The notes under the pieces are model-generated. The model was not told the DNA's origin and searched no databases. It worked only from the letters and a program-made list of their open reading frames with translations. A stretch of 64,000 nt of DNA from an uncultured Clostridia bacterium (GTDB lineage: Bacteria; Bacillota; Clostridia; Christensenellales; Aristaeellaceae). A program made the translations under genes and the position numbers. The number at the start of each line of letters is the position of its first letter. Within the stretch, counting starts at the first letter, position 1. The DNA lies in the NCBI GenBank assembly GCA_946414315.1, contig CAMKNZ010000002.1, forward strand, positions 62,001-126,000, written 5' to 3'. Positions 1 through 31,214 of this stretch are shown here, piece after piece.

Positions 1-10
1 CGTGTATGTA

Positions 11-12647: not shown

Positions 12648-14459
12648 TTAACGGGGGGAGAAATCCTCTTTCTCCCGGGTGAGGTTGGGGTTGTAGTAGG
12701 GGTCGCCTTCGGTGAGGGTTTTGTTCCACTTGCGCTGGAAGCGGTTGGTCTCTTTGACGAAGAAGGCTTTCTTTTCGGGGGTGTCCTCGTCGCTGCCCCG
12801 GCTCTTGCTTTCATAGTGGGTCAGTTCGGCCCAGGGGGTCCAGACGATGAGGTAGCCGGCTTCCCGGATCCGGAGGCACAGGTCCACGTCGTTGAAGACC
12901 ACGCTGAAGGATTCGTCCAGGCCGCCGAGTGCTTTGTAGACTTTGGCGGGGACCATCATACAGGCGGCGGTGACCGCGCTCACGTTCTGGGCGTAGGTCA
13001 GGCGGCCGAAATAGCCGGGATGGTCTTTCGGGAAGTTTTTGTGCCAGTGGCCCGCCAGCATCTTGATACCGATGCCGATGCCGGCATGCTGGATGGTGCC
13101 GTCGGGATAGTACAGTTTCGCGCCCACCGCGCCCACGTCTTCCCGCTGAGCGTACATGAGCATCTCCTGGATCCAGTCGGGGGAAAGGACTTCCGTATCA
13201 TTGTTCAGCAGCAGGAGCTGTTCGCCTTCGGCGGCTCCGGCGCCCACGTTGTTGACGGCGGAATAGTTGAAGGGTTTGTCATAGGTAATGACTTTGATTT
13301 TCGGATCCTGTTTCAGGGTTTCGTAGTATGCGAAGGTTTCCGGCTCGGTGCTGTTGTTCTCGATGACGATGATCTCGTAATTGGGGTAAGTGGTTTTGGT
13401 TTTGATCGAGTCGATGCAGCGCTTCAGGTCGTCCCTGTGGTCCTTGTTGGGAATCAGGATGGAGACGAGGGGCGTGGAGGTCAGTTCGTATTTCAGGCGG
13501 TACATGGAGGGAACGGGGCCGTCCTCTGCCGTGCCTTTGAGGTTCAGTCTGTCCAGGTGGGCCTGAACGGCCTTCTTGCCGGCTTCGATGACGTAGGGCT
13601 TGGCCTGGATGGCTTCCGCGGTGGAGCCTTTGTGGGCCCGCCAGTAATAAAGGATCTTCGGGATGTGGACGATGTGTTCCGCCTGCTCGGTCAGCCGCAG
13701 GATCAGGTCATGGTCCTGGCTGCCGTCAAATTCAGGGCGGAAACCGCCGCCGGCTTTCTCCAGGAGCTCCTTCCGGAAAGCGGTGAAGTGGCAGATATAG
13801 TTGTTGGCCCGCAGGTTGTCCGGGGCGTAGTCCGGCTTGAAATGGGGATTGAATGCGTCCTTCGGGGTTTCGCTGAAGGTGTTTTCGTCGGTATAGATCA
13901 GGTCCGCGGGCCCGGCGGAGATGACCTTCATCATCTCAAAGAGGGCGGACGGGTGGAGCAGGTCATCGTGGTCGAACAGGGCGTACCAGTCCCCGGTGGC
14001 CATGCGGATACACCGGTTGGTGTTGCCGGAGATCCCTTCATTGGTTTTCAGTTTCTGATATCTGATGCGGGGATCTTTGGCGGCTTCGTCCTGGCAGATC
14101 CTTTGGACGTAGGCGTGGGCTTCGTCGCTGCCGTCAGCCAGGCAGAGCTCCCAGTTCGGGTAGGTCTGGTTTTTGACGGAGTCCAGCATCTGGATGAGAT
14201 AGGTTTCGGGTGTATTGTAGAGGGGAACCAGGATGCTGAACTGAACCGGATCGGGGAAGGTGGTGTTTTGCTGCGATGTTTTCTCCTCCTCCGTCAGGAG
14301 GGTTTTGCGGTAGAGCTCTTCCCGGATGCGGAGTTCTTCCTTGTGCTCGTTGATCACCCGGACGGCTTCCTGCCGGCCGTCGGTGATCCAGTGTTTGACA
14401 AAGCGCAGGGACTGCCACAGGCGGTCGTGCTTTTTGAGGAATGTACGGATGGCGTTCAC
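12648..14459 (-). CDS. Two-domain GT2 glycosyltransferase (rhamnosyltransferase/RgpF-like)
   Basis: A 603-residue cytoplasmic protein with two GT-A domains. The first (about 75-290) starts at FSILVPLYNTPETYL, with the metal-binding DHDD (ALFDHDDLLHP) and DGSQDHDL. The second (about 325-560) starts at VSILIPNKDHRDDL, with LLNNDTEV and FNDVDLCLRIREAGY. This tandem layout is common in transferases building rhamnan- or galactan-like chains. The start is GTG with GGGAGGGG just upstream. It is the last gene of the lic-type operon, 42 bases after the BCCT transporter, so it may build the backbone that receives phosphocholine; that is inference. A paralogue is at 57300-58946. Confidence 0.88.
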   Translation of the reverse strand: MNAIRTFLKKHDRLWQSLRFVKHWITDGRQEAVRVINEHKEELRIREELYRKTLLTEEEKTSQQNTTFPDPVQFSILVPLYNTPETYLIQMLDSVKNQTYPNWELCLADGSDEAHAYVQRICQDEAAKDPRIRYQKLKTNEGISGNTNRCIRMATGDWYALFDHDDLLHPSALFEMMKVISAGPADLIYTDENTFSETPKDAFNPHFKPDYAPDNLRANNYICHFTAFRKELLEKAGGGFRPEFDGSQDHDLILRLTEQAEHIVHIPKILYYWRAHKGSTAEAIQAKPYVIEAGKKAVQAHLDRLNLKGTAEDGPVPSMYRLKYELTSTPLVSILIPNKDHRDDLKRCIDSIKTKTTYPNYEIIVIENNSTEPETFAYYETLKQDPKIKVITYDKPFNYSAVNNVGAGAAEGEQLLLLNNDTEVLSPDWIQEMLMYAQREDVGAVGAKLYYPDGTIQHAGIGIGIKMLAGHWHKNFPKDHPGYFGRLTYAQNVSAVTAACMMVPAKVYKALGGLDESFSVVFNDVDLCLRIREAGYLIVWTPWAELTHYESKSRGSDEDTPEKKAFFVKETNRFQRKWNKTLTEGDPYYNPNLTREKEDFSPR

Positions 14460-14501
14460 GGTGCCCCTCCCGGATTATCTGTTTGCTGTATTATACCACA
14501 C

Positions 14502-16034
14502 TTATTCCTTTTCCGGTTTGAGTTCGCCCATGTATTTCTTCGCGTCCTTGAAGAAGGCCCGGATCATGACGATCATGATGAGGCCGATGGGGAAGGCGGA
14601 GATGATGCTGACCGACTGGATGTTGTTCATGCTGCTCTCGGAGAAGACCAGGGCGATGGGCAGGACGATCAGGAGGATGCACCAGAGGAAGGTGATCGTC
14701 TTTCCGGGCTTCTCGTCCGCGCCCAGCTTACGGTAGGAGTAGCAGGCGGCGGTATAGGCGATGGAGTCAAAGCTGGTGGCATAGAAAGCGATCATGGAAA
14801 GCATGGCCACGATCAGGATGAAGGTGGAGCAGGGCATGGTCTTGATCACGTTGATGATCATGCCGTAGAGGTCGCCGGTTTCGGCGTAGGCCGCGATGAA
14901 GTCCGCCCTGCCGGCGATCTGGGTGCCCAGGCCGTAGTTGCCCAGCACGATAAAGGAAACGATCGTCGCGCCGACGCCGAACACATAGCCGCCCAGCACC
15001 ACCTGCTTGACGGTCCGGCCCCGGGAAATGTTCCCGATGAAGAACGGGGCCGCGATGCACCAGACCATCCAGTAGGCCCAGTAATAGATCGTCCAGTCCT
15101 GGGGGAAGTTGTTGGCCCGGACGGGATCGGAATAGGTGCTCAGCTCAATGAAATGCTGGAACATCTTGCCCAGGCTCTGGAAGCCGTTCTCGATGATGAA
15201 CCGGCCCTGGCCGCCGATGAGGAGCACGATGATCAGCAGGCCGAAGAACAGCCAGATGCAGACCTTGGCCAGGATGCCGATGCCCTTGAAGCCGTGCAGC
15301 ACGGCATAGGTGTAGATCGCGCAGGTGATCACCAGGATGATGATCGTCACGGCGGTCCGGCTGATGCTGATGCCGAAGAGGGTCACCATGATCTCCGCCA
15401 TCAGGGGAGTGGCCACGGAGAAGGTCGTCGCCGTGCCGGCCAGCAGGGCAAAGAGCGCGAACAGGTCGATGATCCGGCCCAGCAGGCCCTCCGCGTGCTT
15501 ATCCCCGATCACGGGACGGCAGGCCTCGGAATAGCGCTGGCGGTTCCGTTTCCGGACGTGGAGCATGAAGCCGAAGGCCACGGCCAGCACCAGATAGAAG
15601 GCCCAGGGGATGAAACTCCAGTGGAACAGCGGGAACACGCCGGCCCAGTCATAGATATTCCCCATCTCCGCGATATGCGGGTTCGTGGCATACATGACCC
15701 ACTCCGCGAAGCTGTAGAAAATGATGTCCGCGGCCAGGCCGCAGGTGAACATCATGGAGCCCCAGGTAAAAAAGGAATAGCGGGGCTTTTCGTTCGGCTC
15801 GCCCAGGACAATGTTCCCGTACTTGGAGAAGCTCAGGAAGACCGAGATCACCAGGACGCCCACGCCCATGACCAGGTAATACAGGCCCACCGTGTCGCCG
15901 AAGAAGAAGCGGATCTGGCTGATCACTTCATTGGACTGCTCCGGCCAGATAAACAAAAGACCCGCCACGCCCATGATCAGGATAAAGGGCACCAGGGTGA
16001 TCATCCAGTCGATCCGTCTTTTTTCCGTGTTCAT
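14502..16034 (-). CDS. BCCT family transporter, probable choline importer
   Basis: A 510-residue, twelve-span membrane protein of the betaine/choline/carnitine transporter family. The family box is clear: WTIYYWAYWMVW followed by FIGNISRGRT (about residues 305-335), and the glycine-rich first spans are typical. It overlaps the LicC-like gene by four bases and lies in one operon with a choline kinase. Choline is therefore the most likely substrate, and the protein would fill the role of LicB, which in pneumococcus and Haemophilus is an unrelated DMT-type permease. Short N- and C-terminal tails suggest no BetP-like osmosensing domain. Betaine or ethanolamine are alternatives. Confidence 0.9.
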   Translation of the reverse strand: MNTEKRRIDWMITLVPFILIMGVAGLLFIWPEQSNEVISQIRFFFGDTVGLYYLVMGVGVLVISVFLSFSKYGNIVLGEPNEKPRYSFFTWGSMMFTCGLAADIIFYSFAEWVMYATNPHIAEMGNIYDWAGVFPLFHWSFIPWAFYLVLAVAFGFMLHVRKRNRQRYSEACRPVIGDKHAEGLLGRIIDLFALFALLAGTATTFSVATPLMAEIMVTLFGISISRTAVTIIILVITCAIYTYAVLHGFKGIGILAKVCIWLFFGLLIIVLLIGGQGRFIIENGFQSLGKMFQHFIELSTYSDPVRANNFPQDWTIYYWAYWMVWCIAAPFFIGNISRGRTVKQVVLGGYVFGVGATIVSFIVLGNYGLGTQIAGRADFIAAYAETGDLYGMIINVIKTMPCSTFILIVAMLSMIAFYATSFDSIAYTAACYSYRKLGADEKPGKTITFLWCILLIVLPIALVFSESSMNNIQSVSIISAFPIGLIMIVMIRAFFKDAKKYMGELKPEKE

Positions 16035-16753
16035 TGTTCGGGTTCCTCCTTTGAATACGTGGGATCCAGTTGAATCAGTTCCTCAAAACTGTCAATCTCT
16101 TTCACGTCGTCTTTCTGCATGGGATAAACGCCCAGTTCATAGTCTTCCGGGTGGCAGAACATCGCCACGTCGTCCCAGTAGATCTGCCGGTTGCCGCCCT
16201 CGAACTCCTGCTCCAGGTGGCGCCTGAGCTTTTCCCCGTCTTCCTTCGTCCAGCGGGAAACGCTGTACAGCTGCCATCCGCGCTTTCCGCCGGTGCGGCT
16301 GCAGGAGGTGACGATCCCGTCCTCCGCCTGCATCAGCCACTCCTCCGTCTCTTCCTCCGTCCACACCGCGCTGTACCCGGAGCGGGTAAAGCGCGGGTCC
16401 AGCACCGCCGGGTTCAGGATCAGCTGGTCTCCGTCCAGGATCATGCAGTCCCCCAGGTACTCCCGGGCCATATACAGGGAGGAGATGTTGTTGCAGCTGT
16501 CGTAATACGGGTTTTCGATCAGCCTGACGCCGGGCCGGTGTTTCGCCCAGTCCTCAAACTGTTCCTTCAGGTATCCGGTCACCACATAGATGGACCGGAT
16601 GCCGTTGAATTGCAGGGCGTCCACCACGGAGTCGATCATCCGCACGCCGTTGACTTTGATCAGGGGCTTGGGGACCGTGCTGGTGGCCGGCCGCATCCGC
16701 TGGCCGATTCCCGCCGCCATGATGATCGCCCTCTTGACAGTATGTGTTTGCAT
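16031..16753 (-). CDS. licC: LicC-like CTP:phosphocholine cytidylyltransferase
   Basis: A 240-residue GT-A-fold nucleotidyltransferase. The P-loop-like AIIMAAGIGQRMRPAT (residues 9-24) and KPLIKVNG are the family marks. NPYYDSCNNISSLYMA and the LDGDQL Asp pair (near 106) are the stretch seen in LicC enzymes, which make CDP-choline from CTP and phosphocholine. GAGGACCT precedes the ATG. It follows the fused kinase gene by 13 bases and is coupled to the transporter gene. Because the upstream protein already carries a similar domain, this enzyme may serve a second phospho-alcohol such as phosphoethanolamine; nothing in the sequence settles this. Confidence 0.85.
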   Translation of the reverse strand: MQTHTVKRAIIMAAGIGQRMRPATSTVPKPLIKVNGVRMIDSVVDALQFNGIRSIYVVTGYLKEQFEDWAKHRPGVRLIENPYYDSCNNISSLYMAREYLGDCMILDGDQLILNPAVLDPRFTRSGYSAVWTEEETEEWLMQAEDGIVTSCSRTGGKRGWQLYSVSRWTKEDGEKLRRHLEQEFEGGNRQIYWDDVAMFCHPEDYELGVYPMQKDDVKEIDSFEELIQLDPTYSKEEPEQ

Positions 16754-16766
16754 AGGTCCTCACTAA

Positions 16767-18521: not shown

Positions 18522-18558
18522 GAATTGCTCCTTTCTTGCTTTTCGTGAACACCTGGGT

Positions 18559-18587
18559 ATCATACACCTGTTTGCCTTGTTTGTAAA
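18559..18587 (-). promoter_or_regulatory. Promoter of the lic-type operon with CAGGTGT direct repeats
   Basis: On the minus strand TTTACA (18582-18587), 17 bases, TATGAT (18559-18564). Two copies of CAGGTGT flank the -10 box (one within the spacer, one just downstream), 15 bases apart start to start. They could be operator half-sites, possibly for the winged-helix domain encoded by the first gene; that link is a guess. Confidence 0.75.
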
Positions 18588-18629
18588 GGCTTTGGATGAA
18601 ATATATAGCCGTTTTTTCCGCCGGGACGC

Positions 18630-18661
18630 AAAAAAATCCCTCCCGGTCGAACCGGGAGGGA
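18630..18661 (-). terminator. Intrinsic terminator of the LRR choline-binding protein gene
   Basis: An 11-base-pair GC-rich stem (arms 18637-18647 and 18651-18661) with a CGA/TCG loop, followed on the minus strand by seven Ts. It isolates the surface protein gene from the downstream lic operon. Confidence 0.9.
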
Positions 18662-18680
18662 AAGAGGTTCAGGGATAAAC

Positions 18681-20519
18681 TCAGATCAGCTGACCGCTGG
18701 CGTTGAAGGTGTAGCTCACGCCGTCAATGGTAATGGTGCCGGTCACCATCTCACCGGAGCCGGGCATCAGGTAATACCACTTGCCGCCGTCCTTCAGCCA
18801 GCCCTGCGTCATCGCGCCGTTCTTCTGGAAGTGGAACCAGTAACCGCTGATCTGCTTCCAGCCGGTCGTCATCACGCCGCTGGCGCTCATATAGTATGCA
18901 TTGCCGTCAGCCACCCAGTCGGAAGTGACCATGGCGCCGTCCGTGCTGCTCAGGTAATACCATTCGTTCTTATACTTCAGCCAGCCGGTCTTCATGGAAC
19001 CGTCGGCATTGCAGTAATACCAGGTGCCGCTCACCTTGAACCAGCCGGTCACCATCACGCCGTTGGCGTCGAAATAGTACCATTTGCCTTCGATCTGTTT
19101 CCAGGTGGAAGCCGCCATGGCGCCGGTGGATGTATCCAGCCAGTACCAGTTGTTCTGGTACTTCAGCCAGCCGGTGATGGGGCTGCCGTCGGTACCCATG
19201 TAGTACCAGGTCGTGCCGATCTTCTTCCAGCCGCCTTCGACCATCGCGCCGTTGGCGTCGAACATATAGTTCTTGTCTCCGATGGTGAAGACGCCGGCGC
19301 GGTACATCAGTCCCTTGCCGGAACCCAGCACGGCGTTGGGCTCGAAGTAATACCACTTGCCCTTGATCTGACGCCAGCCCGTCTGCAGCACGCCGCTCAT
19401 GAAGTAATACCAGTCGTTGCCGCTGGGATTGTACCAGCCGTCCTGCATCTTTCCGTCGGGATGGAGGAAATATTCCTTCCCGTCGATAACCTGCCAGCCG
19501 GTCTGCATAATGCCGTATTTGTTGAAATAATACCAGTTCTTGCCGATCTGCTTCCAGCCGATCGCGAAGGAGGAAACGCCGTAGCAGTAGTACCAGTTGC
19601 CGGCGGAATCCTGCTGCCAGGTCAGGCGGGAATCCAGCACAACAACCGGGATCTCGATTTCGACATCCAGCTGGTCGGGGCTGTAGCAGGTCACGATGGC
19701 TTCACCGGGCTTCGTCGTGGTGCTTACCAGGCCGTTCTCGTCCACTTTGAGGATGGAAACGTCGCTCGTGGACCAGCCCAGGCGGTTGGAAGCGGCAATC
19801 GACGGATCGATCGTCACGCTGATCTGGGCGGTATTGGTCTGGCTCTTGGCCCACACGGTGGTCCACTGATCCTGGGTAGCCTTCAGCTTGTAGATCAGGG
19901 GCTCAACGGAGGTATACTGAATGCCGTTTTCCTTACAATAGGTTTCCATCGCGCTGCCCTTGAAGCACTGGATGGTCAGGTAGGTACATCCGGCAAAGGC
20001 TTCGGAACCGATGCTCGTCACATAGGCGGGAACGGGCGTGTAGATCGTTGTGCCGATGCTCTGCTGGTCAGGACCGATCAGGTTCTGCAGGTTCGGGCAG
20101 TGGGCAAAAGCGCTCGCGCCGATGCTCGTCACGGAACGCGGGATGTTGACCGTGGTCAGGGCGCCGCAGTAGGCGAACGTGCTCGCCGGGATCGTATCGA
20201 TCGTATTCGGCAGGGTCACGGTCTGCAGCTTGGAACAGTTTTTGAACGCGCGGTCCCGGATGGACGTCACCGTGTTCGGGATCGTGATGCTCGTGATGCT
20301 GTCGTTGTTCTGGAACGCCGCCGCGCCGATCGTTTTGACCGAGGACGGGATCGTGGGGCTCGCGCTCGTGCCGAGGTACTGGACCAGGATCTGCTCGTCA
20401 TCGCTCAGGCGGAAATCGCCGATGATCACATCCGCGGACGCGGTGGTCAGGGTGATTGCGCTGATGGCGACCAGGATCAGCGCCAGAACGACGCAGAACA
20501 GCCGTCTCGTAGTTTTCAT
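18681..20519 (-). CDS. Secreted BspA-type LRR protein with choline-binding repeats
   Basis: A 612-residue exported protein with a signal peptide at residues 1-29 (TTASADV cleavage region). LRR_5/BspA-type repeats (about 40-205, with units such as VTSIGASAFAHC) are followed by a bacterial Ig-like segment (about 215-300, SRLGW..VDENGLVSTTTKPG). Then come about 15 choline-binding-type repeats of some 20 residues (GWKQIGKNWYYFNKYG pattern) to the C-terminus. There is no LPXTG motif or membrane anchor, so wall attachment through phosphocholine is the natural model given the lic genes next door. The same repeat family also binds glucans or cell-surface carbohydrate in other proteins. AGGAGG precedes the ATG; it has its own promoter and terminator. 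Confidence 0.92.
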   Translation of the reverse strand: MKTTRRLFCVVLALILVAISAITLTTASADVIIGDFRLSDDEQILVQYLGTSASPTIPSSVKTIGAAAFQNNDSITSITIPNTVTSIRDRAFKNCSKLQTVTLPNTIDTIPASTFAYCGALTTVNIPRSVTSIGASAFAHCPNLQNLIGPDQQSIGTTIYTPVPAYVTSIGSEAFAGCTYLTIQCFKGSAMETYCKENGIQYTSVEPLIYKLKATQDQWTTVWAKSQTNTAQISVTIDPSIAASNRLGWSTSDVSILKVDENGLVSTTTKPGEAIVTCYSPDQLDVEIEIPVVVLDSRLTWQQDSAGNWYYCYGVSSFAIGWKQIGKNWYYFNKYGIMQTGWQVIDGKEYFLHPDGKMQDGWYNPSGNDWYYFMSGVLQTGWRQIKGKWYYFEPNAVLGSGKGLMYRAGVFTIGDKNYMFDANGAMVEGGWKKIGTTWYYMGTDGSPITGWLKYQNNWYWLDTSTGAMAASTWKQIEGKWYYFDANGVMVTGWFKVSGTWYYCNADGSMKTGWLKYKNEWYYLSSTDGAMVTSDWVADGNAYYMSASGVMTTGWKQISGYWFHFQKNGAMTQGWLKDGGKWYYLMPGSGEMVTGTITIDGVSYTFNASGQLI

Positions 20520-21918: not shown

Positions 21919-21943
21919 CGTCCCTGCTCCTTTTGGTTCTTCG

Positions 21944-24004
21944 TCATTCCGGGTCATATTCGGTCATTACGACCCAGTCAAAGGGCTGGGGCTCCCCGTT
22001 CCATGACCCGCGCTTCCCCCCGGCGCTGTCTTCCGCGCCGTGGTACAGGTGCAGCCGGGATTCCAGCCCCTCCGGCGTCGTGCCGTCGGTCATGATCCGG
22101 ACCGTATAGGTCTTCCCGGGCTCTGTATCCGCCTTCAGGGCAAACCGGTCATAGCCGATGTCCTTGATCTCCTCCCGGGGCAGCGTGCTTTCGCCGATCA
22201 CTTCGCCGCTGGCGTCGTCGATCAGCTGCACCGTAATCCCCGGCCGGTTCTTGCCCAGGTATGTCGCCGTCCGCAGCAGGACGGCGGTCAGGTTCCGGTC
22301 CGCGGCCTCAAACCGCTGCTCCGCCACGTCCCCGTCCTGCAGCATCGGTCCCTGGACGTGCTCCCCGCTGTCGAGCAGGCCGCTCACTTTCGTGCCGTAT
22401 CCGGCCTGCCGCAGCGTCTCCAGCGCCGCCGGCAGGTCTTCGTTCCGCACATAGGTATACAGGCCGACAGGGGTATAGTGTTCCTCCGCATACTGGACAA
22501 AGTCCTTCGCGTAATCCCGGACATAATGGCCCCAGAGGCTTCCGTCCGGCTCCAGGACCAGCAGCCGGGTCTGGTTTTCCTTCAGCGCCGTCAGTTCCTG
22601 TTCTCCGTAATATTCATAGAACCAGGGGTTGGCAATGGCCGGCGAGCCCGGGTCCAGGGTCAGGTTGTTCCGCATCACGATCATCTCGCTGTAGCTCAGG
22701 TCTCCCGTATGGATCCGCTCCCCGGGCTCCGCCAGGATCTCCAGCACCTCCCGGTTGCTCTCCCGGTACTTTTCTCCGGCCAGCAGCCGCGGCACATGGA
22801 TCAGGCCCCTGGCCGCGATCGCCACGGGCACCGCCAGCGCCAGCGCACAGGCCAGCGCCGCCGCCGCGGGCAGCGCCCTTCGCCAGCTCCGCTTTTCCAT
22901 AAAGGAGCTCAGCGCCCCGTCCAGGCAGAAAGCCATCGGGATACAGGTCACCGCCATATAAGGCGCCCCGTGGAACCCGTCGAAAGCCCGGACGCCGGTC
23001 AGGATCACCGCCAGCAGGAAAGTGATGCCCGCAATCCGTTTCTTTTCTCTGAACAGGCAGACGACAAAAACCAGCAGCGCGGCCGTCTGCGCCCAGATCT
23101 GCAGCGCCCAGCGCCAGCCTGCGGCATTCAGGTAGCCGGCGCCTTTCCCCTGGTATTGGATCCATCTCGGGAAGGTTGCGAAAAACGAACCGCCCGCGTC
23201 CGTGCCGAAGCCGTCCAGGTATTTGGAATAGATCCCGACGTTCAGTTCATATGCCCCGCCGAAGGCGTTGGCGAGGTTGCCGCTGGCCAGGTACCACAGC
23301 GCCAGCAGCAGGAAGGGACACAGGCAGATCAGCGTCAGCCGGAGGTCTTCCTTCAGCATTTCCGGAAGCTTTCGCTCTTTCCGGGCTGCCTGGACCGCCT
23401 GCATGGCGACCACGCCCAGGAAGAGAATCAGCAGGGGATAGGCGGACAGGAACGTGGTCCCGAAGCTCAGCACGATGCCCAGGGAGATCATCCAGGCCAT
23501 GCCGGCGGAGATCTTTTTCTCCTCCGCGTAGCGCAGCAGCTCCAGCAGGATGATCAGGATGCCGATCCCCTGCCAGTGGTCCGAGATCATCGTCGTCCCC
23601 AGGGGATGCATCCGCAGCTGCGCCGCAAACAGGACCGGCAGCAGCGCCAGCGTAAACCGGGAAAAATGCTTCCGGTGCCGCAGGTAGATCCCGGTCCACA
23701 GCACGCTCAGCAGCACGTCGAAATACAGCCGGAACTGCCAGGGTGTCCTGGCGCCCAGCAGCGCCGCCGGCGCGGCAAAGTAGTAGGAAAACGGCATATG
23801 CTGGGACGGGTAGGCCTTGTAGATGTCCCCGCCCTTCGCCAGGCTGTAGCCGCCGTAGAACACGTCCAGCTCGTCCACAAACAGGCCGTCCGCCAGCATG
23901 GTCAGGTACAGCGCCAGCACGCAGCAGAAAAACAGCGCCGGAACCCATTTGTCTCCCTTTGCCAGCCAGCTGTTGATCTTTCCCGTTTTACTAACCCTCA
24001 GCAT
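21944..24004 (-). CDS. Polytopic membrane protein, GT-C glycosyltransferase-like
   Basis: A 686-residue protein with about eleven hydrophobic segments in the first 420 residues and a soluble C-terminal outer domain of some 250 residues. An Asp-Glu-Leu-Asp motif (FVDELDVFYGG, about residues 44-54) lies in the first outer loop, where GT-C enzymes keep their catalytic acidic residues. The general plan (ArnT/PMT or mannosyltransferase-like) suggests a lipid-phosphosugar-dependent transferase acting outside the membrane. I do not recognise the exact family. It lies between licD and the flippase gene; the flippase ATG alternative would overlap its end. GGAGG stands four bases before the ATG. Confidence 0.7.
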   Translation of the reverse strand: MLRVSKTGKINSWLAKGDKWVPALFFCCVLALYLTMLADGLFVDELDVFYGGYSLAKGGDIYKAYPSQHMPFSYYFAAPAALLGARTPWQFRLYFDVLLSVLWTGIYLRHRKHFSRFTLALLPVLFAAQLRMHPLGTTMISDHWQGIGILIILLELLRYAEEKKISAGMAWMISLGIVLSFGTTFLSAYPLLILFLGVVAMQAVQAARKERKLPEMLKEDLRLTLICLCPFLLLALWYLASGNLANAFGGAYELNVGIYSKYLDGFGTDAGGSFFATFPRWIQYQGKGAGYLNAAGWRWALQIWAQTAALLVFVVCLFREKKRIAGITFLLAVILTGVRAFDGFHGAPYMAVTCIPMAFCLDGALSSFMEKRSWRRALPAAAALACALALAVPVAIAARGLIHVPRLLAGEKYRESNREVLEILAEPGERIHTGDLSYSEMIVMRNNLTLDPGSPAIANPWFYEYYGEQELTALKENQTRLLVLEPDGSLWGHYVRDYAKDFVQYAEEHYTPVGLYTYVRNEDLPAALETLRQAGYGTKVSGLLDSGEHVQGPMLQDGDVAEQRFEAADRNLTAVLLRTATYLGKNRPGITVQLIDDASGEVIGESTLPREEIKDIGYDRFALKADTEPGKTYTVRIMTDGTTPEGLESRLHLYHGAEDSAGGKRGSWNGEPQPFDWVVMTEYDPE

Positions 24005-24014: not shown

Positions 24015-24836
24015 TTAATCCTTATACTGTTCTTCCGGATCCAGGTGCTGAATATATATGCTCCGGTCCTCCGGCGGCTTCATATAATCCCCGTAATATG
24101 TCCTCAGGTCCTCGTCGTATCCTGCCGGGATCGGGAACTTCCGTCCCCGCAGTTCCCCTTCGGCGGCGCTTTCGAACCACTTCGTCTTCTGGTAGGTCTT
24201 TCCGGGCACCCAGTTGCTGAACATCCAGCCCGACTTCGCGTTCTTCCGGTTCAGCCCGTCCATCGCCCGGTCAAACCACCCGCACAGGATCTTTGCCGGG
24301 ATCAGTTTCCCGGCAAAGCTCATCGCGCCCACAGCAATCTTCTGGAGCAGCGTATATTTTCCGTAATCCATATCAAACCGATGGCCGATGGCCAGCCCGT
24401 AGATCAGGGTGATCCTCATCCGGGCCAGTTTCCGGCCGAGGCCGCTCTCCGGCACCCGGAAATGGGTGAATACGTCCACGCACACATGGTTCTGCCGGTT
24501 CCCGTAAGCCCGGTCCGCTTCGGTTTCCTTCCGGAGCAGGTACCGCGTATCCGCCACCCGCGGCACGCAGTCGAAAAACAGCGGCGCAAAGTCCTTCGGC
24601 TCGATCAGCCGGATATGCTCCGGCAGATGCTTCTCCATCGCGGCTTTGAACTTCGGGTATTCTTCCCGGCGCATTTTGATATCGATATCGTCGTCCCAGG
24701 CAATCAGGTCCTTTTCCCGCACCGAGCCGATCAGCGATCCGCCGTCCAGGAAATAGGTGACGCCCTCCTTCCGGCAGATATCGTCAATCAGGCAGAGGAG
24801 CTCATACGTCCTGTCCTGCGTCTCTTTCAGATTCAC
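24015..24836 (-). CDS. licD: LicD family phosphotransferase
   Basis: A 273-residue member of the LicD family, which transfers phosphocholine (or another phospho-substituent) from a CDP-activated donor to a sugar of a surface glycan. The hallmark is intact: FLDGGSLIGSVREKDLIAWDDDID (residues about 29-53) with its Gly-Gly-Ser and Asp-Asp-Asp-x-Asp. The start is GTG with AGGAGG eight bases upstream. It is the first gene after its own promoter and heads an operon with a GT-C-like protein and a flippase. With CDP-choline made by the genes at 16031-18521, phosphocholine is the most likely substituent. Given the PEP-mutase fusion at 49708, a phosphonate is a possible alternative. Confidence 0.92.
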   Translation of the reverse strand: MNLKETQDRTYELLCLIDDICRKEGVTYFLDGGSLIGSVREKDLIAWDDDIDIKMRREEYPKFKAAMEKHLPEHIRLIEPKDFAPLFFDCVPRVADTRYLLRKETEADRAYGNRQNHVCVDVFTHFRVPESGLGRKLARMRITLIYGLAIGHRFDMDYGKYTLLQKIAVGAMSFAGKLIPAKILCGWFDRAMDGLNRKNAKSGWMFSNWVPGKTYQKTKWFESAAEGELRGRKFPIPAGYDEDLRTYYGDYMKPPEDRSIYIQHLDPEEQYKD

Positions 24837-24874: not shown

Positions 24875-24903
24875 ATTATCAGCCAATTCGTTTGCTTTGT
24901 CAA
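24875..24903 (-). promoter_or_regulatory. Promoter of the licD operon
   Basis: On the minus strand TTGACA (24898-24903), 17 bases, GATAAT (24875-24880). The -35 box lies immediately after the T-rich tail of the upstream terminator. Confidence 0.82.
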
Positions 24904-24956: not shown

Positions 24957-26087
24957 TTACGGAATCCACGCGCCGCTGGCAGCGAACCGGTATTCCTTGC
25001 CGTCGATGGTGAATGTGCCGTCCGCAAGCATGACGCCGTTTTCATCCATATAGTACCAGGTGCCGCCGTCCAGGATCCATTCCTTTTCCGCCATTGCGCC
25101 GCTGTCCTTGAAGTAGTACCACGTGCCGTCGATCTTCTCCCAGCCGGCCGCCATCGCGCCGGATTCTTTCAGGTAATACCTGCTGTTGCCGTCCTCGAGC
25201 CAGGTGTCATACCAGATCCAGCCCCATTCGTCGGCGTAATACCAGTCGTTTCCGGCTTTGAACCAGCCGGTCTTGACAGCGCCGTCCGCGCCCGCATAAG
25301 CCCAGTTATGATATGTGGTGCCTTCATATTCCCAGGTCGAATCATACCACTTGTTCGCCATCATCGCGCCGGACTTGTCAAACGCATAATGTTTTTCGTC
25401 GATTCCATAGAGCCCGTCGTTGTACATATAGCCCCAGTCACTGAAATAATACCACGTGCCGCCGATCTTCTTCCAGCCCGTAGCCAGGGTGCCGTCGGGA
25501 TTGGCGTAATACCAGCTGGTGTAAGAGGTGCCATCTCCGCTTGTCCATGTCTGGCTGTTCCAGCCGTCGTCCTTCATCACGCCGTCTTTGAAGAAATAAG
25601 GCGTCTCATCGACCTCGTAAACGCCGTTCGAATAGAAATACTTCCAGACGTAGGTTCCGTCCTCCCATGTTTCGGTGTATTTCTCAACGTAATACCACTT
25701 ATTGTTGATCTTGAGCCAGCCGTCGCCGGAGGTGGACACACCCGTCCAGGCGCCGTTCTCATTGAACAGGTAGACGGTGTCCTTATCCTGGTCATACCAG
25801 GATCCGGTGCACATTTCCGGCCAGAAATAATACCATGTGCCGCCAATCTGCTTCCAGCCCTCGGCCAGTTTGCCCTTGCCTTCGCTGTAGAACCAGCATT
25901 TCCAGTCGGTATCCCAGCTGTATGAATCCTCGCGCCATCCGGTGAAGTCAATTTTCTCTCCGGTTGAAGCGTCGGTCAGGTAAACACCGTCTTCTGTCCA
26001 GAGCGTCTCTATGCTGGCAGACGCGACAGCAGTCAGGCCCACGAGCAGAAGCACCAGAACCAGTAAAGTCACCAAATACCGTTTCAT
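24957..26087 (-). CDS. Secreted choline-binding-repeat protein without another domain
   Basis: A 376-residue exported protein. A signal peptide (residues 1-24, LVGLTAVASAS) is followed by nothing but aromatic-rich choline-binding-type repeats. Several are regular (GWKKIGGTWYYFSDWG, GWEKIDGTWYYFKDSG, ILDGGTWYYMDENG) and several are longer and divergent, with Thr-Trp-Glu or Tyr-Asp-Ser inserts. The end GKEYRFAASGAW matches the last repeat of the LRR protein. No catalytic domain is present, so it may be a wall-coating or scaffold protein held by phosphocholine. A 7-bp hairpin (26121-26136) sits in its leader; I see no clear promoter. The C-terminal repeats are closest to those at 18681-20519. 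Confidence 0.88.
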   Translation of the reverse strand: MKRYLVTLLVLVLLLVGLTAVASASIETLWTEDGVYLTDASTGEKIDFTGWREDSYSWDTDWKCWFYSEGKGKLAEGWKQIGGTWYYFWPEMCTGSWYDQDKDTVYLFNENGAWTGVSTSGDGWLKINNKWYYVEKYTETWEDGTYVWKYFYSNGVYEVDETPYFFKDGVMKDDGWNSQTWTSGDGTSYTSWYYANPDGTLATGWKKIGGTWYYFSDWGYMYNDGLYGIDEKHYAFDKSGAMMANKWYDSTWEYEGTTYHNWAYAGADGAVKTGWFKAGNDWYYADEWGWIWYDTWLEDGNSRYYLKESGAMAAGWEKIDGTWYYFKDSGAMAEKEWILDGGTWYYMDENGVMLADGTFTIDGKEYRFAASGAWIP

Positions 26088-26252
26088 AAATAACCTTCTT
26101 TCTCCGTTTATTGTATTGTCGCAGAGATTTCTCTGCTTAAAGATGTATAGTTATTATGGCACAATTACACCTGTCATTTATCACGGATTTGTTAAGTAAT
26201 ATTTCATTATTGTTTCGATATGTTGAACATTTCCTTTATTTGCCTTCTTTGT

Positions 26253-29200
26253 TCAGTGTCCCTCGCTGTGCACCGCCGGCAGGGACAGCAGATCCCTGCC
26301 CTTCACGCCTTCCGGCAGCGGCGCTGTTTCGCCGTCTTCCGTAACGCCCAGCGCCAGGATCGTCGCCAGGATATCCGCGTCCGTTGTCGCTTCGGAAACG
26401 GTGGTATAGCCCGCCAGGTCCGGATGGATAACGATCACCTGGCCCTCCGCCCGGTTCAGGATGATGACAACCGTCCTGTCCAGCAGTTCCTCTCCGTCCA
26501 GCGTACCGATCAGGATATCCAGGCAGTTGTCAATGTCTTCCGTGCTGTCCGGCTCTGTTCCGTATTCTTCCAGGTCTGTTGCTGTCGCCGCCAGATCTGT
26601 TGCTGTCGCCGTCGTTTCCCAGGGACCGGCCGGACCCGCCCGGTCCGCGTCGTATACCTGCGCGCCTCCCGGCCCGAACGATTCCGCCTCTGCGCCGGTC
26701 AGCTGCAGGCTGAGGAAATAGGGCTTATTCTCCGCGTTCAGACTGTTTCCGTCCGTTACGATCCAGTTCAGCGCTTCGGCAACACGCCGCTCATTGGATA
26801 CGGCCATCGGGCCGTTCGTTGCCCGGTTCAGCACGCCTTCCGGCACCAGCGCGAACCCGCGGGAGGCAATCATTTCCTCCGCGCTGGACGCCGCGCTTCC
26901 ATCCAGGCCTTCCCGGAGCACATCCTCTGCCCCGTCCGTTCCGGCACTTTCCGCCGTATGGTTTGTGTAGAGGACCCCCAGCCCGGTCAGCAGCGGCAGG
27001 ACCTCACTGCCCTCATGTCCGCCGCTGACACAGACCAGGATCACGTTCTTCCCCTGGAGGCGGATCTCTTCTTCCTCCGCCCTGGCGTTTGCCTGCTCTT
27101 TCTTGAGCTCGTTCTTTTTCTCCGTCTGTTGAATCTGATGTTTAACCGCAGCGGAAGCAGTCGCCCTTTGCGGCGTATACATCCGCTCAATATCGGCGTT
27201 GTAATACTCTGTCCTCAGGTTTGTCCGTCCGGTGTCCCCGGTCGCTTTTCTGCCGGCCCGGCTCTCGTCCACCGAAACAGGCGTATAAACGGATCCGTCC
27301 GGCGCGTAGATCAGGTTCGGATCCCTTTCTTCGGCGGAATCGCTGCCATCCTGGTTCGCGTCGGCGTCGTAATAGTCTTTTTTTCCTTCTTCCGCCTGGC
27401 CGTCTTCGTCGGTCGTCTTTGTATCCGCTGTCTCGGGATTGTATACAGATCCGTCCGGCGCGTATTCCGCATTCGGATCTTTTTCGTCTTCCTTCTCTTC
27501 GTCCTTTTTTGCGTCATCCTTCTTTTCGGTTACGGTCGCGCCCTGCCGGCCGGTGATCCCGGCGCCGCCGTCGGCGCCGCCTGTCGCGGTTACGCTGCCG
27601 CCGTTCACGGTCACGACCGTCGCTTCCGCTCTGCCTCCGATGCCGTCGCCGGCGCCGCAGCCGGCAGCCTTCACGGTGCCCCCGTCAATCGTGACGGTCG
27701 CGCTGCCGTCCGTACCGCCGCCGATGCCCGCGCATCCGGGCGCGCCGGAGGTGGCGGTGATCACGCCGCCGACGATCCGGATTTTGCCGGCGTCGCCCTT
27801 TCCCTGGGTGGAATAAGCGCCGCCGATGCCCGCGCCGGTGGCCCGCTGGTCCCCTGCCGGCTCACGGGAGGTTGCGGTCAGGGAGCCGGTCTTGCCGGAC
27901 TGGCAGTAGATCGTCAGGCTGCTGCCCGGGGACACCTGGATACCGCCGTTTGCCTTCAGGACCGCCCCGTCGGTCAGGACCAGTTTCACATCGCCGTAGA
28001 CGGTGATCCGCTGTTCCGTCGTCACATTGCCGCTCACCGCATACCATCCGCTGAAGCCGGCGGATGACTGCCAGGTGGCTCCCCGTGCGTCCGCATATCC
28101 GCCTGTCCAGGACTGCTTCCGGCCCTTTTCGTCCAGGTAGTCAAGGGAGACGCTTTCCGGTTTCTGCTCGGAGACCGCCAGTAAAATCTCAAAATTAACC
28201 CCCTGAAGTGTAACAGTCAGCTTCTGTGCTGCGGAAGCTGACTGTGCTGCGGCCTGAACAGACCGGTTCGGTGCCTCGCCTGTCAGTGACAGGCCTTTCC
28301 CGGCCTCCGCGGAAGCCTCAAGCCCCACCGCCGTCGGCGTTCCTGTCAGGCCCACGGTGGAGACCAGTTCATTCACGGGAATGGCCGTATCCGGCAGCAC
28401 GGCAAACTGTCGTTCTTCATAGGTAAAGGTCACCGTGTAGACGGAAAAGCCGTCGCTCTGCGCGGTCACGGTCCCGCCCGCCTCCTGCACGGAGAGTTTC
28501 TCGGCGTTCAGGCTGCCGTTTGCCTGCTCTTCCATATGGTATACGGTTGTCTGCAGGTTGGGGTTGTCAACCTCCGCCAGGGAGAAAGCCACGTTTACGG
28601 TCTGTCCTTCCGCCGGCTGGAGTTCATTGCCGTTCTCATCCAGGATCTTGATGTCAAAGGAGTAACTGGCCGCGACCTGGGTCTTTTCATCCTGAGCCCG
28701 GTCAATCGCCTTGTCCACCTGCGCCTGCTGCGCGGAGGTAATCCGCGTTACGGAAAGCCGCGCCTCAGCCGGGAACACGCCCGGCGCCGCGTAAACGGAG
28801 ATCTTCACGCCGTCCACCACCGCAGACTGGCTGAACGCCGCAGGTTCCGGCGCCGGTTCAGCCGCAGGCGCTTCCGTGGGCGTTTCCGTCGGAGCTTCTG
28901 TCGGAACTGTGGCAGGTGTTTCTGTCAGCGTTTCGGTTGGAGCTTCTGTCGGAACTGTGGCAGGTGTTTCTGTCAGCGTTTCGGTTGGAGCTTCTGTCGG
29001 AACTGCGGCCGGTGTTTCTGTCAGCGTTTCTGCCGGAGCTTCTGTCGGCGTTTCGGCAGGTGCTTCGGTGATCACCGCCGTCAGAAGGAGATCCGCCACG
29101 GTATCCGCGTCGGCATCAAAGCTGACCTCGTCCGCGTCCCAGCGGACGCCGGCGCTGATCTTTTCTGTTTTATGATTGTCCACCCGGACGACGACGGCGT

Positions 29201-29885
29201 TCACGGCCGCGCTTTCCCCGGCGTCCTGTTTCCACTGGCGCAGTTTCGCGTCCGCGATCCGGACGTTCACCCGGCCGCTTCCGCCGATCTTCAGCAGCAG
29301 GTGGCGGGTACGGACCGTCTGTCCCGCTTCCGCCTTCGGCGCGAAAGCGTTTTCCGCCCGTTCCGCGGCTTCGCTGTCGCTGACCTTTCCGATGGAAGGC
29401 ACAGCGCCCGCTTCCGCGGCTGTCAGGGTGATTTTCATCCCGTCGATCCGGACCTCGACGACCGCGGGAACCGCGGGCGTATCGGTCGGGGCTTCCGTAG
29501 GAGCTTCGGTCGGGGCTGCCGTCGGGGCTTCGGTAGGCGCTTCCGTCGGAGCAGCGGTCGGCGCTTCCGTAGGCGCTTCTGTCGGAGCTTCGGTAGGCGC
29601 TTCGGTCGGGGCTTCCGTAGGAGCAGCGGTCGGTGCTGCCGTCGGGGCTTCCGTAGGCGCTTCCGTAGGGGCAGCGGTCGGCGCTTCCGTAGGTGCTTCG
29701 GTGGGCGCTTCGGTAGGCGCTTCGGTAGGCGCTTCGGTGGGCGCTTCTTCCTGGGGGGGCGCGGCTTCTTCCACGGCGGCAGGCACCGTTTCGTCCGTGA
29801 TCTCTTCAGCGCCCGCAGGCAGCCAGAAAACAACCGCCGCTGTCAGGCACAGTGCGATCAGGCGTTTCCGCGTCTCCATTTTCAT
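26253..29885 (-). CDS. Large secreted PTEA-repeat protein with degenerate sulfatase/LtaS-like C-terminus
   Basis: About 1210 residues. A signal peptide (FWLPAGAEE near 25) is followed by a Pro-Thr-Glu-Ala linker of 22 four-residue units. Next come a first beta-rich domain, a second PTE-rich linker made of three 16-residue repeats, and two beta-sandwich-like stretches. A Gly-rich beta-helix-like domain (GAGIGGAY, CAGIGGGTDG, DGIGGRAE) and a charged Lys/Glu/Asp-rich stretch follow. The C-terminal 300 residues follow the order of LTA-synthase-like sulfatases (KNVILVC..., PYFLSLQL..., LLDRTVVII..., IVIHPDLAG, ATILALGV) but lack the metal-binding residues. I chose the ATG at 29885 (GAAGGTG nine bases upstream) over one six codons earlier. 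No wall-anchor motif is seen; function unknown. Confidence 0.75.
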   Translation of the reverse strand: MKMETRKRLIALCLTAAVVFWLPAGAEEITDETVPAAVEEAAPPQEEAPTEAPTEAPTEAPTEAPTEAPTAAPTEAPTEAPTAAPTAAPTEAPTEAPTEAPTEAPTEAPTAAPTEAPTEAPTAAPTEAPTEAPTDTPAVPAVVEVRIDGMKITLTAAEAGAVPSIGKVSDSEAAERAENAFAPKAEAGQTVRTRHLLLKIGGSGRVNVRIADAKLRQWKQDAGESAAVNAVVVRVDNHKTEKISAGVRWDADEVSFDADADTVADLLLTAVITEAPAETPTEAPAETLTETPAAVPTEAPTETLTETPATVPTEAPTETLTETPATVPTEAPTETPTEAPAAEPAPEPAAFSQSAVVDGVKISVYAAPGVFPAEARLSVTRITSAQQAQVDKAIDRAQDEKTQVAASYSFDIKILDENGNELQPAEGQTVNVAFSLAEVDNPNLQTTVYHMEEQANGSLNAEKLSVQEAGGTVTAQSDGFSVYTVTFTYEERQFAVLPDTAIPVNELVSTVGLTGTPTAVGLEASAEAGKGLSLTGEAPNRSVQAAAQSASAAQKLTVTLQGVNFEILLAVSEQKPESVSLDYLDEKGRKQSWTGGYADARGATWQSSAGFSGWYAVSGNVTTEQRITVYGDVKLVLTDGAVLKANGGIQVSPGSSLTIYCQSGKTGSLTATSREPAGDQRATGAGIGGAYSTQGKGDAGKIRIVGGVITATSGAPGCAGIGGGTDGSATVTIDGGTVKAAGCGAGDGIGGRAEATVVTVNGGSVTATGGADGGAGITGRQGATVTEKKDDAKKDEEKEDEKDPNAEYAPDGSVYNPETADTKTTDEDGQAEEGKKDYYDADANQDGSDSAEERDPNLIYAPDGSVYTPVSVDESRAGRKATGDTGRTNLRTEYYNADIERMYTPQRATASAAVKHQIQQTEKKNELKKEQANARAEEEEIRLQGKNVILVCVSGGHEGSEVLPLLTGLGVLYTNHTAESAGTDGAEDVLREGLDGSAASSAEEMIASRGFALVPEGVLNRATNGPMAVSNERRVAEALNWIVTDGNSLNAENKPYFLSLQLTGAEAESFGPGGAQVYDADRAGPAGPWETTATATDLAATATDLEEYGTEPDSTEDIDNCLDILIGTLDGEELLDRTVVIILNRAEGQVIVIHPDLAGYTTVSEATTDADILATILALGVTEDGETAPLPEGVKGRDLLSLPAVHSEGH
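28891..29034 (-). repeat. Three 48-bp tandem repeats inside the PTEA-repeat protein gene
   Basis: Units 28891-28938, 28939-28986 and 28987-29034 are nearly identical and encode the 16-residue unit PTEAPTETLTETPATV. The near-identity at DNA level suggests recent expansion and possible length variation. Confidence 0.9.
29478..29741 (-). repeat. 22-unit, 12-bp PTEA/PTAA coding repeat
   Basis: Residues about 55-142 of the large secreted protein are 22 consecutive four-residue units (PTEA, less often PTAA, ending PTDT). The 12-bp DNA units differ at third positions, so this is an older array than the 48-bp one. It probably forms an extended Pro-rich spacer crossing the wall. Confidence 0.9.
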
Positions 29886-29933
29886 GCCCTGTTTCACCTT
29901 CATTCATCAATCGGGGATATTCCACCGAATGAA

Positions 29934-29962
29934 ATTATACCTCAATCGGTTGGTTTCCGCAA
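29934..29962 (-). promoter_or_regulatory. Promoter of the PTEA-repeat protein gene
   Basis: On the minus strand TTGCGG (29957-29962), 17 bases, TATAAT (29934-29939). A perfect -10 box and a moderate -35 box, about 45 bases before the start codon. Confidence 0.65.
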
Positions 29963-29979
29963 CCCGGCCCCTTCAGCAT

Positions 29980-30018
29980 AAAAAACGGCCCGAAGGACGT
30001 CTTCGTTCCTTCGGGCCG
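29980..30018 (-). terminator. Intrinsic terminator of the CAP/choline-binding protein gene
   Basis: Stem of twelve base pairs (arms 29986-29997 and 30007-30018; core GGCCCGAAGGA) with a nine-base loop, followed on the minus strand by a six-base T-run. Confidence 0.9.
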
Positions 30019-30032
30019 GAAACGGGTATGGT

Positions 30033-31214
30033 TTATTCGAAAGCAAATACCTTCAGGATTGCCTGCCAGAGCGCTTTGATCAGCCGCCACAGCGGATTCT
30101 CCGTCCCCAGCGGTGTGCCGTAATCGTCCAGGATGGTTTCTTTCCAGGCCCCGTCGCTGCCAAAGGATTCCGTCAGTCCGTTAATCTGCGCCGTGCCGGT
30201 GGCCATCTCGCCGCTGGAATACATATAATACCAGGTATTGCCTTCCTGCAGCCAGCCGGTATGCATCGCGCCGGAGGGACGGAAATAATACCATTTTCCG
30301 TCAATCTGCTTCCATCCGGTCACCATCGCGCCGGATCCGCCCATATAGTACCTGGTTCCGCCGTCATTGACCCAGCCGGTCTGCATGGCGCCGTCCCGGT
30401 CCATGTAGTACCAGTTTCCGCCGTCCTCCAGCCAGCCGCTCTGCATCACACCGGAATCGTTCAGGAAAAACCATTTCCCTTCCTTCTCCATCCAGCCGGT
30501 GGCCATCTCGCCGCTTTCTTTCATGTAATACCAGGCGCCGTCGTCCTGCAGCCACCCGGTATGCATAATGCCGTCCCGGTCCATATAGTACCAGTTTCCG
30601 CCCTGTTTCATCCAGCCGGTAACGATGCTGCCGTCCGCTTTCCGGTAGCTCCACTCTCCGCCGCGCTGCTCCCAGCCGGCCGTGCCTGTTGAAGCCGGGG
30701 AAGCTTCCATCGGGTCGGAAGCAAACTCCTGCGCCCAGTAGCGGATGCCGTTCACTTCCACCACAGCGATGCCGACCCGGGTCATCTCGCCCATGAGCAT
30801 AATGCGGCGGTGTCCCTGTCCGGCATAGTTCTCATCTTCTTCCAGGAAGCCTTCAAAAGCCTCCCTCGCCGTTCGAAACCCGCAGGCGATATTCTCCCCC
30901 ACATATTCGCGGTTGTCCGGAAAAGCGGTGAAACAGTCCGTTCCGTCCGGGCGGGTATGATCGAAGCACACGGCAAGCTCTTTTGCGCGTACCAGCGCCA
31001 CCGCTTCCAGTTCTTCGTCATACTGCAGCCGGCCCAGACCCGTCTTCCGCGTCACGGTCCGGTTGTCGCTGTTCCAGTACCAGGCGTCATCCCCGGTCCG
31101 GAATTCGTTGATCATCTGCAGCATGCCCCGGGCGTCATCCATGAGGTCCGCATGGGCAGCCGGGATGATAAACAGCATGGAAACCAGCAGGAGAAAGGCA
31201 ATGATTCGTTTCAC
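30033..31214 (-). CDS. Secreted CAP (SCP/PR-1) domain protein with choline-binding repeats
   Basis: A 393-residue exported protein with a signal peptide at residues 1-22 (FIIPAAHA). The CAP domain (about 25-170) shows the usual motifs: a FDHTRPDG-type block, GENIACGF, GHRRIMLMGEMTRVGIAV and YWAQEF. Nine regular choline-binding-type repeats follow (about 178-365; GWLQDDGAWYYMKESG pattern), then a short amphipathic C-terminal tail ending LWQAILKVFAFE. CAP proteins bind lipids or have unclear wall functions in bacteria. The repeats would hold it to phosphocholine on the cell surface. The start is GTG with GGAG nine bases upstream. It has its own promoter and terminator and diverges from the ABC-exporter operon. 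Confidence 0.92.
   Translation of the reverse strand: MKRIIAFLLLVSMLFIIPAAHADLMDDARGMLQMINEFRTGDDAWYWNSDNRTVTRKTGLGRLQYDEELEAVALVRAKELAVCFDHTRPDGTDCFTAFPDNREYVGENIACGFRTAREAFEGFLEEDENYAGQGHRRIMLMGEMTRVGIAVVEVNGIRYWAQEFASDPMEASPASTGTAGWEQRGGEWSYRKADGSIVTGWMKQGGNWYYMDRDGIMHTGWLQDDGAWYYMKESGEMATGWMEKEGKWFFLNDSGVMQSGWLEDGGNWYYMDRDGAMQTGWVNDGGTRYYMGGSGAMVTGWKQIDGKWYYFRPSGAMHTGWLQEGNTWYYMYSSGEMATGTAQINGLTESFGSDGAWKETILDDYGTPLGTENPLWRLIKALWQAILKVFAFE

Follow-up and report, generated by a model that had tools for sequence, protein, structure and literature searches.

The window analysed here is a 64,000-nucleotide stretch of DNA (G000:C2:62001-126000) from a 2.24 Mb Clostridia genome that is 60% complete. 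Positions 12648-31214 carry an island whose genes all lie on the minus strand, as judged from open reading frames (ORFs) and a family scan of the window, and which includes a lic operon headed by a gene for a helix–turn–helix (HTH)-LicC-LicA fusion protein. In order of transcription (30033-31214 to 20701-21957), the island encodes a CAP protein, a PT-repeat protein, a choline-binding protein, LicD, a large membrane protein and a MOP-fold protein, followed by a leucine-rich repeat (LRR) choline-binding protein, the fusion, the stand-alone cytidylyltransferase LicC2, a BCCT transporter and a two-domain GT2 glycosyltransferase (Table 1). LicD, a LicC-type enzyme, choline kinase, BCCT and three repeat proteins had all been named in an earlier, sequence-only reading, and each is borne out by family or PDB matches. 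The HTH fusion, a twin palindromic site at its own gene, and the apparent mobility of the kinase-LicC-BCCT block go beyond that reading.

Choline kinase and one cytidylyltransferase are joined in a single chain, with the domain order winged HTH, LicC-like and LicA according to Pfam, PDB sequence and AlphaFold/Foldseek matches. The ORF as listed starts at 18563, and the likely ATG lies at 18521, preceded by GGAG. The HTH exceeds the Pfam cut-offs (HTH_24, HTH_36) and is found with conserved residues in 44/44 aligned fusions. The AlphaFold model shows three helices and a short hairpin, then the LicC and LicA folds, with a predicted local distance difference test (pLDDT) score of 88.6 and a predicted template modelling (pTM) score of 0.71, the latter making domain placement less sure. 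The LicA domain matches pneumococcal LicA (4r77) by sequence (E 7.7e-31) and LicA–choline (4r7b) by Foldseek (E 6.5e-20). Eleven pocket residues, taken from PMC4364537, were followed through the 44 aligned fusions. Residues T29, D176, N181, D194, E196, Y197, W251 and W254 are unchanged in 44/44, and Y268 in 43/44, giving nine of eleven kept in 43-44 of the 44 sequences, as for a choline kinase with a choline pocket.

The LicC-like domain of the fusion has a different pocket. In LicC numbering, and with redundancy left in among the LicC relatives compared (91 fused, 78 stand-alone), the fused domain has Pro at position 105 in 89/91 sequences, Glu at 192 in 91/91 and Asp at 107 in 91/91; position 137 (Arg in 89/91) was set aside, as two alignments place it differently. 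The P105/E192 combination, with D107 retained, fits a changed role for this domain. That both cytidylyltransferases are plain LicC enzymes is rejected, because P105/E192 holds almost throughout the fused domains. Correspondingly, the two cytidylyltransferases and choline kinase of the sequence-only reading are present as domains, but one cytidylyltransferase and the kinase form a single HTH fusion with an altered pocket. PntC phosphonate cytidylyltransferases resemble the fused domain in their LicC-like fold and in having Glu where LicC has D192 (PMC6697681); the fused domain differs from them in carrying Pro at 105 and in forming one chain with choline kinase.

NadR consists of an HTH, a nicotinamide mononucleotide adenylyltransferase and a ribosylnicotinamide kinase, and serves NAD. 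The fusion likewise holds HTH, nucleotidyltransferase and kinase in that order in one chain, and by analogy an enzyme-repressor logic is proposed for it. The nucleotidyltransferase and kinase families differ (LicC and LicA in the fusion), and no homology is claimed.

Two palindromes of the form GTTCRYGAAC lie at the start of the fusion gene. They were followed through 86 upstream regions, which are 88 minus the duplicates L155 and L149 (identical to L099 and L086); the near-identical L088 and L097 were retained. A TGTTCAYGAAA site with at most one mismatch occurs within 70 bp before the start in 70/86 regions, compared with 0.3 in shuffles and 0.5 in random 70-mers from the same loci, and 53 of these 70 sites begin 29-30 bp before the start. 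Paired palindromes 24-26 bp apart are found in 73/86 regions vs 0.0 in shuffles (20 shuffles each). Most positions between the palindromes lack a consensus and show only an A/G-rich tendency. In 1.72 Mb of loci, 80/84 pairs are no more than 350 bp away from a fusion-gene match. The site, the pair, its near-exclusivity and its position thus define a conserved candidate operator at the fusion's own gene; in the window, the centre of palindrome 1 falls 13 bp after the -10 element of the lic operon promoter. These features, like the genes, their pocket residues and the fusion itself, are read directly from the DNA.

The twin motif might instead act in RNA, with the palindromes pairing across the ribosome-binding site to control translation. 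The ribosome-binding site often lies between the palindromes, and the site covers the chosen start codon in 55/73 loci and another possible in-frame start in 7 more. The remaining 11/73 cover no possible in-frame start yet keep the 24-26 bp spacing, which a hairpin would not need, and the window has no Rfam match, so that control through RNA is unlikely. Because of these 11 loci, coding constraint is also insufficient to account for all pairs.

A less demanding explanation is that this is an ordinary Lic/choline-binding-protein island in which the HTH survives as a relic or serves a structural purpose, with a different regulator recognising the twin sites. DNA binding by the fusion is a prediction; in a neighbouring aminoethylphosphonate (AEP)-type locus, a homologous HTH-like stretch forms part of a membrane permease fusion, a setting in which a DNA-binding role is less evident, and no shared motif was seen by eye upstream of AEP-type HTH genes. 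The conservation of HTH residues in all aligned fusions and the near-exclusivity of the twin site to the fusion gene argue against this explanation, which we regard as having a minor but real share of the probability. A further low-mismatch pair, at L065:5868, lies ~290 bp before a corrinoid - DUF2284 - URO-D - RACo run leading to the fusion gene. The best NCBIfam match of the corrinoid protein is glycine-betaine MtgC, below cut-off, and the pair gives a hint of a choline-like signal. A second HTH-LicC-LicA paralogue (L145 12880-14646, plus strand, in G150; ~31% identity) has Ser at 105, and a similar half-site recurs in its upstream DNA in a different arrangement, as TGAACA...TGTTCA inverted repeats.

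Downstream of the fusion gene, LicC2 retains residues D105, D107, W136, W191, D192 and E216 of LicC in alignment, and thus has a choline-type pocket. Residue D107 presumably binds metal, and W136 and W191 presumably form an aromatic box. Among the 78 stand-alone LicC relatives, positions 105/107/192 read D/D/D in 51 and S/D/E in 18. In PMC6697681, D105 and D192 of LicC are contrasted with Glu in PntC. In 12 genomes, BCCT directly follows the fusion with no LicC2-type gene between them; one of these has a LicC2 orthologue elsewhere, and 8/12 contain a different LicC relative in which position 105 is S, A or T and which in some cases is fused.

LicD exceeds the PF04991 cut-off, and a PDB search returned weak matches only, the plausible one being Fukutin-related protein. 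Its sole NCBIfam match, below cut-off at 56 of 225 bits, is to the diacylglycerol cholinephosphotransferase Mf1, which would suit transfer of phosphocholine to a membrane lipid rather than a glycan. As licD lies in a tight gene run with the MOP-fold protein gene, amid polysaccharide genes, and the repeat proteins need a surface ligand, a lipid acceptor is very improbable. LicD could also transfer AEP or a similar group in place of phosphocholine: at 49708-51714 the same contig encodes a phosphoenolpyruvate (PEP) mutase-cytidylyltransferase fusion, it also encodes an AEP-type importer with a fused PntC-like domain, and LicD-like transferases occur in Pnt clusters (PMC6697681). LicD shares its island with choline kinase, LicC2 and every choline-binding repeat that the genome search detected, however, and a phosphonate donor is accordingly quite unlikely.

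The three secreted repeat proteins exceed the PF01473/PF19127 cut-offs and contain five strict GW..WYY units each; one bears a CAP domain (30033-31214) and another a BspA-type LRR (18681-20519). The profile search against the choline-binding repeat family that the sequence-only reading had proposed returned PF01473 E values of 1.4e-48 (18681-20519), 3.8e-30 (24957-26087) and 1.9e-40 (30033-31214). Genome-wide, 18/18 repeat matches at E<=0.001 fall in C2:80747-92620, within the island, and none occurs at this threshold in 14 control genomes; since the genome is 60% complete, repeats outside the island may exist. Co-occurrence with the fusion, in tests that ignore relatedness, was assessed in 308 genomes of the family, taking E<1e-100 as a strong fusion and E<=1e-4 for repeats; weaker fusions in G002 and G068 (E 4e-71, 4e-60), both without repeats, were counted as negative. 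A strong fusion is present in 11 genomes, repeats in 13 and both in 9 (Fisher 6e-13), which places repeats in 9/11 fusion-positive vs 4/297 other genomes, or 8/10 vs 4/297 without the island's own genome (p 1e-11). At genus level, counting repeats at E<=0.001, the corresponding figures are 6/7 and 2/38.

Were the repeats to bind glucan, their adjacency to the lic genes would be due to chance. The Pfam repeat family does include glucan-binding repeats, as stated in PMC4929436, and the glucan repeat TIGR04035 also matches, below cut-off. The PspA/PspC models outscore TIGR04035 in all three proteins, although all scores are below cut-off and model lengths differ, and the repeats co-occur with the fusion within the family; glucan binding is hardly to be expected.

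The MOP-fold protein (20701-21957) has no Pfam, NCBIfam or PDB sequence match. Its AlphaFold model, built from 12 sequences (pLDDT 85.9), has a MOP fold, with Foldseek matches to the flippase WzxE (9g9n, E 1e-6), then MATE exporters (9e-6) and MurJ (1e-4). The protein is probably a lipid-linked glycan flippase, judging from the model; as WzxE is followed by MATE exporters and MurJ, fold alone leaves flippase vs exporter unsettled. TacF, which senses phosphocholine according to PMC13385700, is absent as 9XZN among the best 50 Foldseek matches listed. Relatives with at least 35% identity occur in 9/308 family genomes including its own, of which 6 are fusion-positive (p 6e-7 without the own genome). 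The flippase earlier placed in the licD operon is thus upheld as to modelled fold and adjoining gene run, and qualified by the missing family match and the exporter alternative.

A search of one genome collection yielded 382 stretches with relatives of the fusion; the best 80 were examined, some of them shortened by contig ends. Within 5 kb downstream, BCCT is encoded in 70 of these 80 loci, a second cytidylyltransferase in 69 and both in 59; 11/80 named loci have a repeat array within the fetched stretch. Recorded hosts include Butyrivibrio, Faecalibacterium, Ruminococcus, Lactobacillus delbrueckii, Trichococcus, Streptococcus porci and Coriobacteriales, and the loci come mostly from gut and rumen records. 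In another genome of the same genus (G165), homologues of the island genes stand in the same order. There, identity is 80% for GT2, which adjoins BCCT, 73% for the flippase, 69% for LicD, 63% for the large membrane protein and 50% for the PT-repeat protein, and only 46-47% for the fusion, LicC2 and BCCT. BCCT of Lachnospiraceae L055 and L057 shares 82% identity (best segment) with that of the window. The simplest reading of these identities is that either the lineage of the window or that of G165 exchanged the three-gene block fusion-LicC2-BCCT; the kinase-LicC-BCCT block appears to be horizontally mobile.

On balance, and from sequence comparison, the island is probably a system for phosphocholine surface decoration with its own choline-binding proteins, in which the fusion is a choline-responsive switch of the lic operon. 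BCCT would import choline, the LicA domain of the fusion would phosphorylate it and LicC2 would convert the phosphocholine to CDP-choline. LicD would then place phosphocholine on an undecaprenyl-linked glycan repeat, which the MOP-fold flippase would carry outward, allowing the three secreted repeat proteins to dock on surface phosphocholine. That CDP-choline is made, phosphocholine placed on glycan and the proteins docked is well supported by gene families, pocket residues and within-family co-occurrence, although glycan chemistry and docking are, like DNA binding, the sign of regulation and the ligand, what we infer rather than read. The winged helix of the fusion is predicted to bind the GTTCRYGAAC palindrome pair at the promoter and start codon of the fusion gene. 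The fusion would repress the lic operon, and binding of a choline-derived ligand to its LicC-like or LicA domain would relieve this repression or possibly set it; the sign of regulation and the ligand in this predicted switch are guesses.

The HTH-LicC-LicA protein may further represent a new enzyme-repressor class, a proposal to which we give an even chance. Its duplicated, pocket-altered LicC would act as sensor and its winged helix on a tandem operator with 24-26 bp spacing, giving gut Firmicutes and some Coriobacteria a self-contained, horizontally mobile control over choline; for AEP, a sister protein of the HTH-PntC type may do likewise. If so, choline-dependent surface change in commensals would be directly testable through a readable DNA switch, and the twin GTTCRYGAAC site would serve as a marker for finding the fusion-kinase cassette. 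In pneumococcus, surface phosphocholine meets host C-reactive protein and the platelet-activating factor receptor, as reported in PMC4364537.

Several observations weigh against the island being a decoration system under a choline-responsive switch. In the enzymes, K45 of the LicA pocket is Arg in 44/44 fusions and E213 is Tyr in 43/44, and LicC2 has Thr at LicC R129. Because D107 and E216 remain, the fused LicC-like domain may still be an active enzyme. Among the 12 genomes in which BCCT directly follows the fusion, 3 lack a LicC of the D or S/A/T type, two of these having distant N/H types. The BCCT family assignment is certain (PF02028), but the protein scores under every NCBIfam cut-off for carriers of betaine, carnitine or choline, so that for the choline uptake put forward in the sequence-only reading the transporter family is secure and the substrate is suggested by the neighbouring genes. 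No natural HTH-less control of the fusion was found.

The twin site has its own exceptions. The palindrome pair is missing from 13/86 upstream regions, and where the site lies over a possible start (62/73), coding or translation could hold part of palindrome 2. In the 308 family genomes, the strict pattern occurs in 5/11 strong-fusion genomes, in each only at the fusion gene, and in 4 others, while a reversed-pattern control gives 7 matches in 6 genomes. The window holds no second pair, and the licD and repeat-protein promoters are without one. Palindrome 1 (TGTTCAYGAAMA) has 27 window matches at up to two mismatches, compared with 12.2 expected and with 0/100 shuffles reaching 27, an excess that a single twin site leaves unexplained.

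The link between fusion and repeats is likewise imperfect. Within the family, repeats occur without a strong fusion in four genomes (G166, G270, G108, G307), and the fusion occurs without repeats in two (G158, G036). Across the class, the link is weak: in a second co-occurrence test, on 250 genomes with the own genome removed, repeats are found in 3/12 fusion-positive vs 15/237 other genomes at a fusion threshold of E<=1e-40 (p 0.046), and in 2/8 vs 16/241 at E<1e-100 (p 0.11). Decoration without repeat proteins, or other lic types with them, would each weaken the class link. Choline decoration that anchors proteins, as first proposed for this island, is therefore favoured by families, pocket residues and family co-occurrence, and only weakly by distribution class-wide.

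The putative chemistry resembles that of the Streptococcus pneumoniae lic/tac system, which shares LicA, LicC and LicD chemistry, a MOP-fold flippase and repeat-anchored proteins (PMC13385700, PMC4364537). The island differs in that BCCT replaces LicB, LicA is fused to an HTH and a LicC-like domain, LicC2 is separate, a twin site is present and the repeat proteins are encoded inside the island. A Clostridia member with wall choline and choline-binding proteins is already known: Clostridium saccharoperbutylacetonicum N1-4 has a choline teichoic acid and 66 choline-binding proteins (PMC3593318), and the novelty outside Streptococcus earlier attached to the system cannot be maintained. Papers on Erysipelothrix also name phosphorylcholine and choline-binding. 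An enzyme-DNA-binding fusion with a twin site was not found in open-licence PMC literature, and regulation by such a fusion at a conserved site appears to be the new part.

Table 1. Genes and DNA signals of the island, in window coordinates.
Feature	Position	Strand	Evidence or remark
Two-domain GT2 glycosyltransferase, last lic operon gene	12648..14459	-	PF00535/PF13641
BCCT transporter, probably choline importer	14502..16034	-	PF02028 E 2.6e-120
LicC2, stand-alone CTP:phosphocholine cytidylyltransferase (predicted)	16031..16753	-	PDB 1jyk (pneumococcal LicC) E 9.8e-34
HTH-LicC-LicA fusion, 584 aa	16767..18521	-	HTH_24, NTP_transf_3, Choline_kinase; 4r77, 1jyk; AlphaFold + Foldseek
Twin site palindrome 2 (ATTCATGAAT), over start codon	18516..18525		Pair search, 1 mismatch, centre-to-centre 25 bp
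Twin site palindrome 1 (TGTTCACGAAAA on - strand)	18540..18551		Sole 0-mismatch match within window
Sigma-70-like lic operon promoter, TTTACA-17-TATGAT	18559..18587	-	10/12 consensus match
Terminator-like hairpin, boundary of LRR protein gene and lic operon	18637..18661	-	11 bp stem + T run
Secreted BspA-type LRR choline-binding protein	18681..20519	-	PF13306, PF19127, PF01473
MOP-fold membrane protein, probably lipid-linked glycan flippase	20701..21957	-	AlphaFold model; Foldseek WzxE 9g9n E 1e-6
Large membrane protein	21944..24004	-	Homologues in islands of G165 (63%), G120 (34%)
LicD phosphotransferase	24015..24836	-	PF04991 E 1.4e-24
Promoter-like TTGACA-17-GATAAT, 5' of licD	24875..24903	-	11/12 consensus match
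Secreted choline-binding-repeat protein	24957..26087	-	PF01473, PF19127
PT-repeat protein, 1216 aa, kept in G165 island	26253..29903	-	PF04886; 50% identical stretch in L147
Secreted CAP-domain choline-binding protein	30033..31214	-	PF00188, PF01473, PF19127

The lic operon genes (fusion, LicC2, BCCT, GT2) are separated by gaps of 13, -4 and 42 bp, and licD, the large membrane protein gene and the MOP-fold gene by 10 and -14 bp. Promoter-like sites precede the fusion, licD and LRR genes, and terminator-like hairpins lie just upstream of those of the fusion and licD. These calls are consensus matches, of which 12 promoters (6.4 expected) and 29 terminators (18.4 expected) occur in the 19 kb. 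The large membrane protein has no Pfam or NCBIfam match; we take it to be possibly a GT-C type glycosyltransferase. The C-terminal part of the PT-repeat protein resembles, by eye and without library support, a degenerate LtaS/phosphatase-type domain. A second licD fragment (53 profile positions, 120-aa frame) lies at a contig end in L159 (G000:C6), near 12.6 kb.

Just before the window (L158, G000:C2:42001-62000), the gene at 9753-12323 on the minus strand encodes an AEP-type ABC permease fused through the HTH-like stretch to a PntC-type cytidylyltransferase domain. The permease is PhnU2-like (312 bits, below the cut-off of 593), and the cytidylyltransferase domain has E105/D107/E192. Its neighbours encode a PhnS2-like binding protein, an HTH-cytidylyltransferase, and TagF-like and GpsA-TagD proteins; the fusion perhaps couples import of a phosphonate to its activation. 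Matches in frames of similar length were found in G152, G178, G149, G187 and G177, on frame length only except for G177. In the window, 49708-51714 on the minus strand encodes a Cytidylyltransferase - CTP_transf_like - PEP mutase fusion (TIGR02320, 398 bits, above cut-off); located ~31 kb from the lic operon, it may open an additional head-group route, based on a phosphonate. Window positions 1-8000 form a compositionally different stretch, with 34-44% G+C in 2 kb steps vs 51-67% beyond, and contain six ORFs of at least 150 aa, spanning 11 to 7337.

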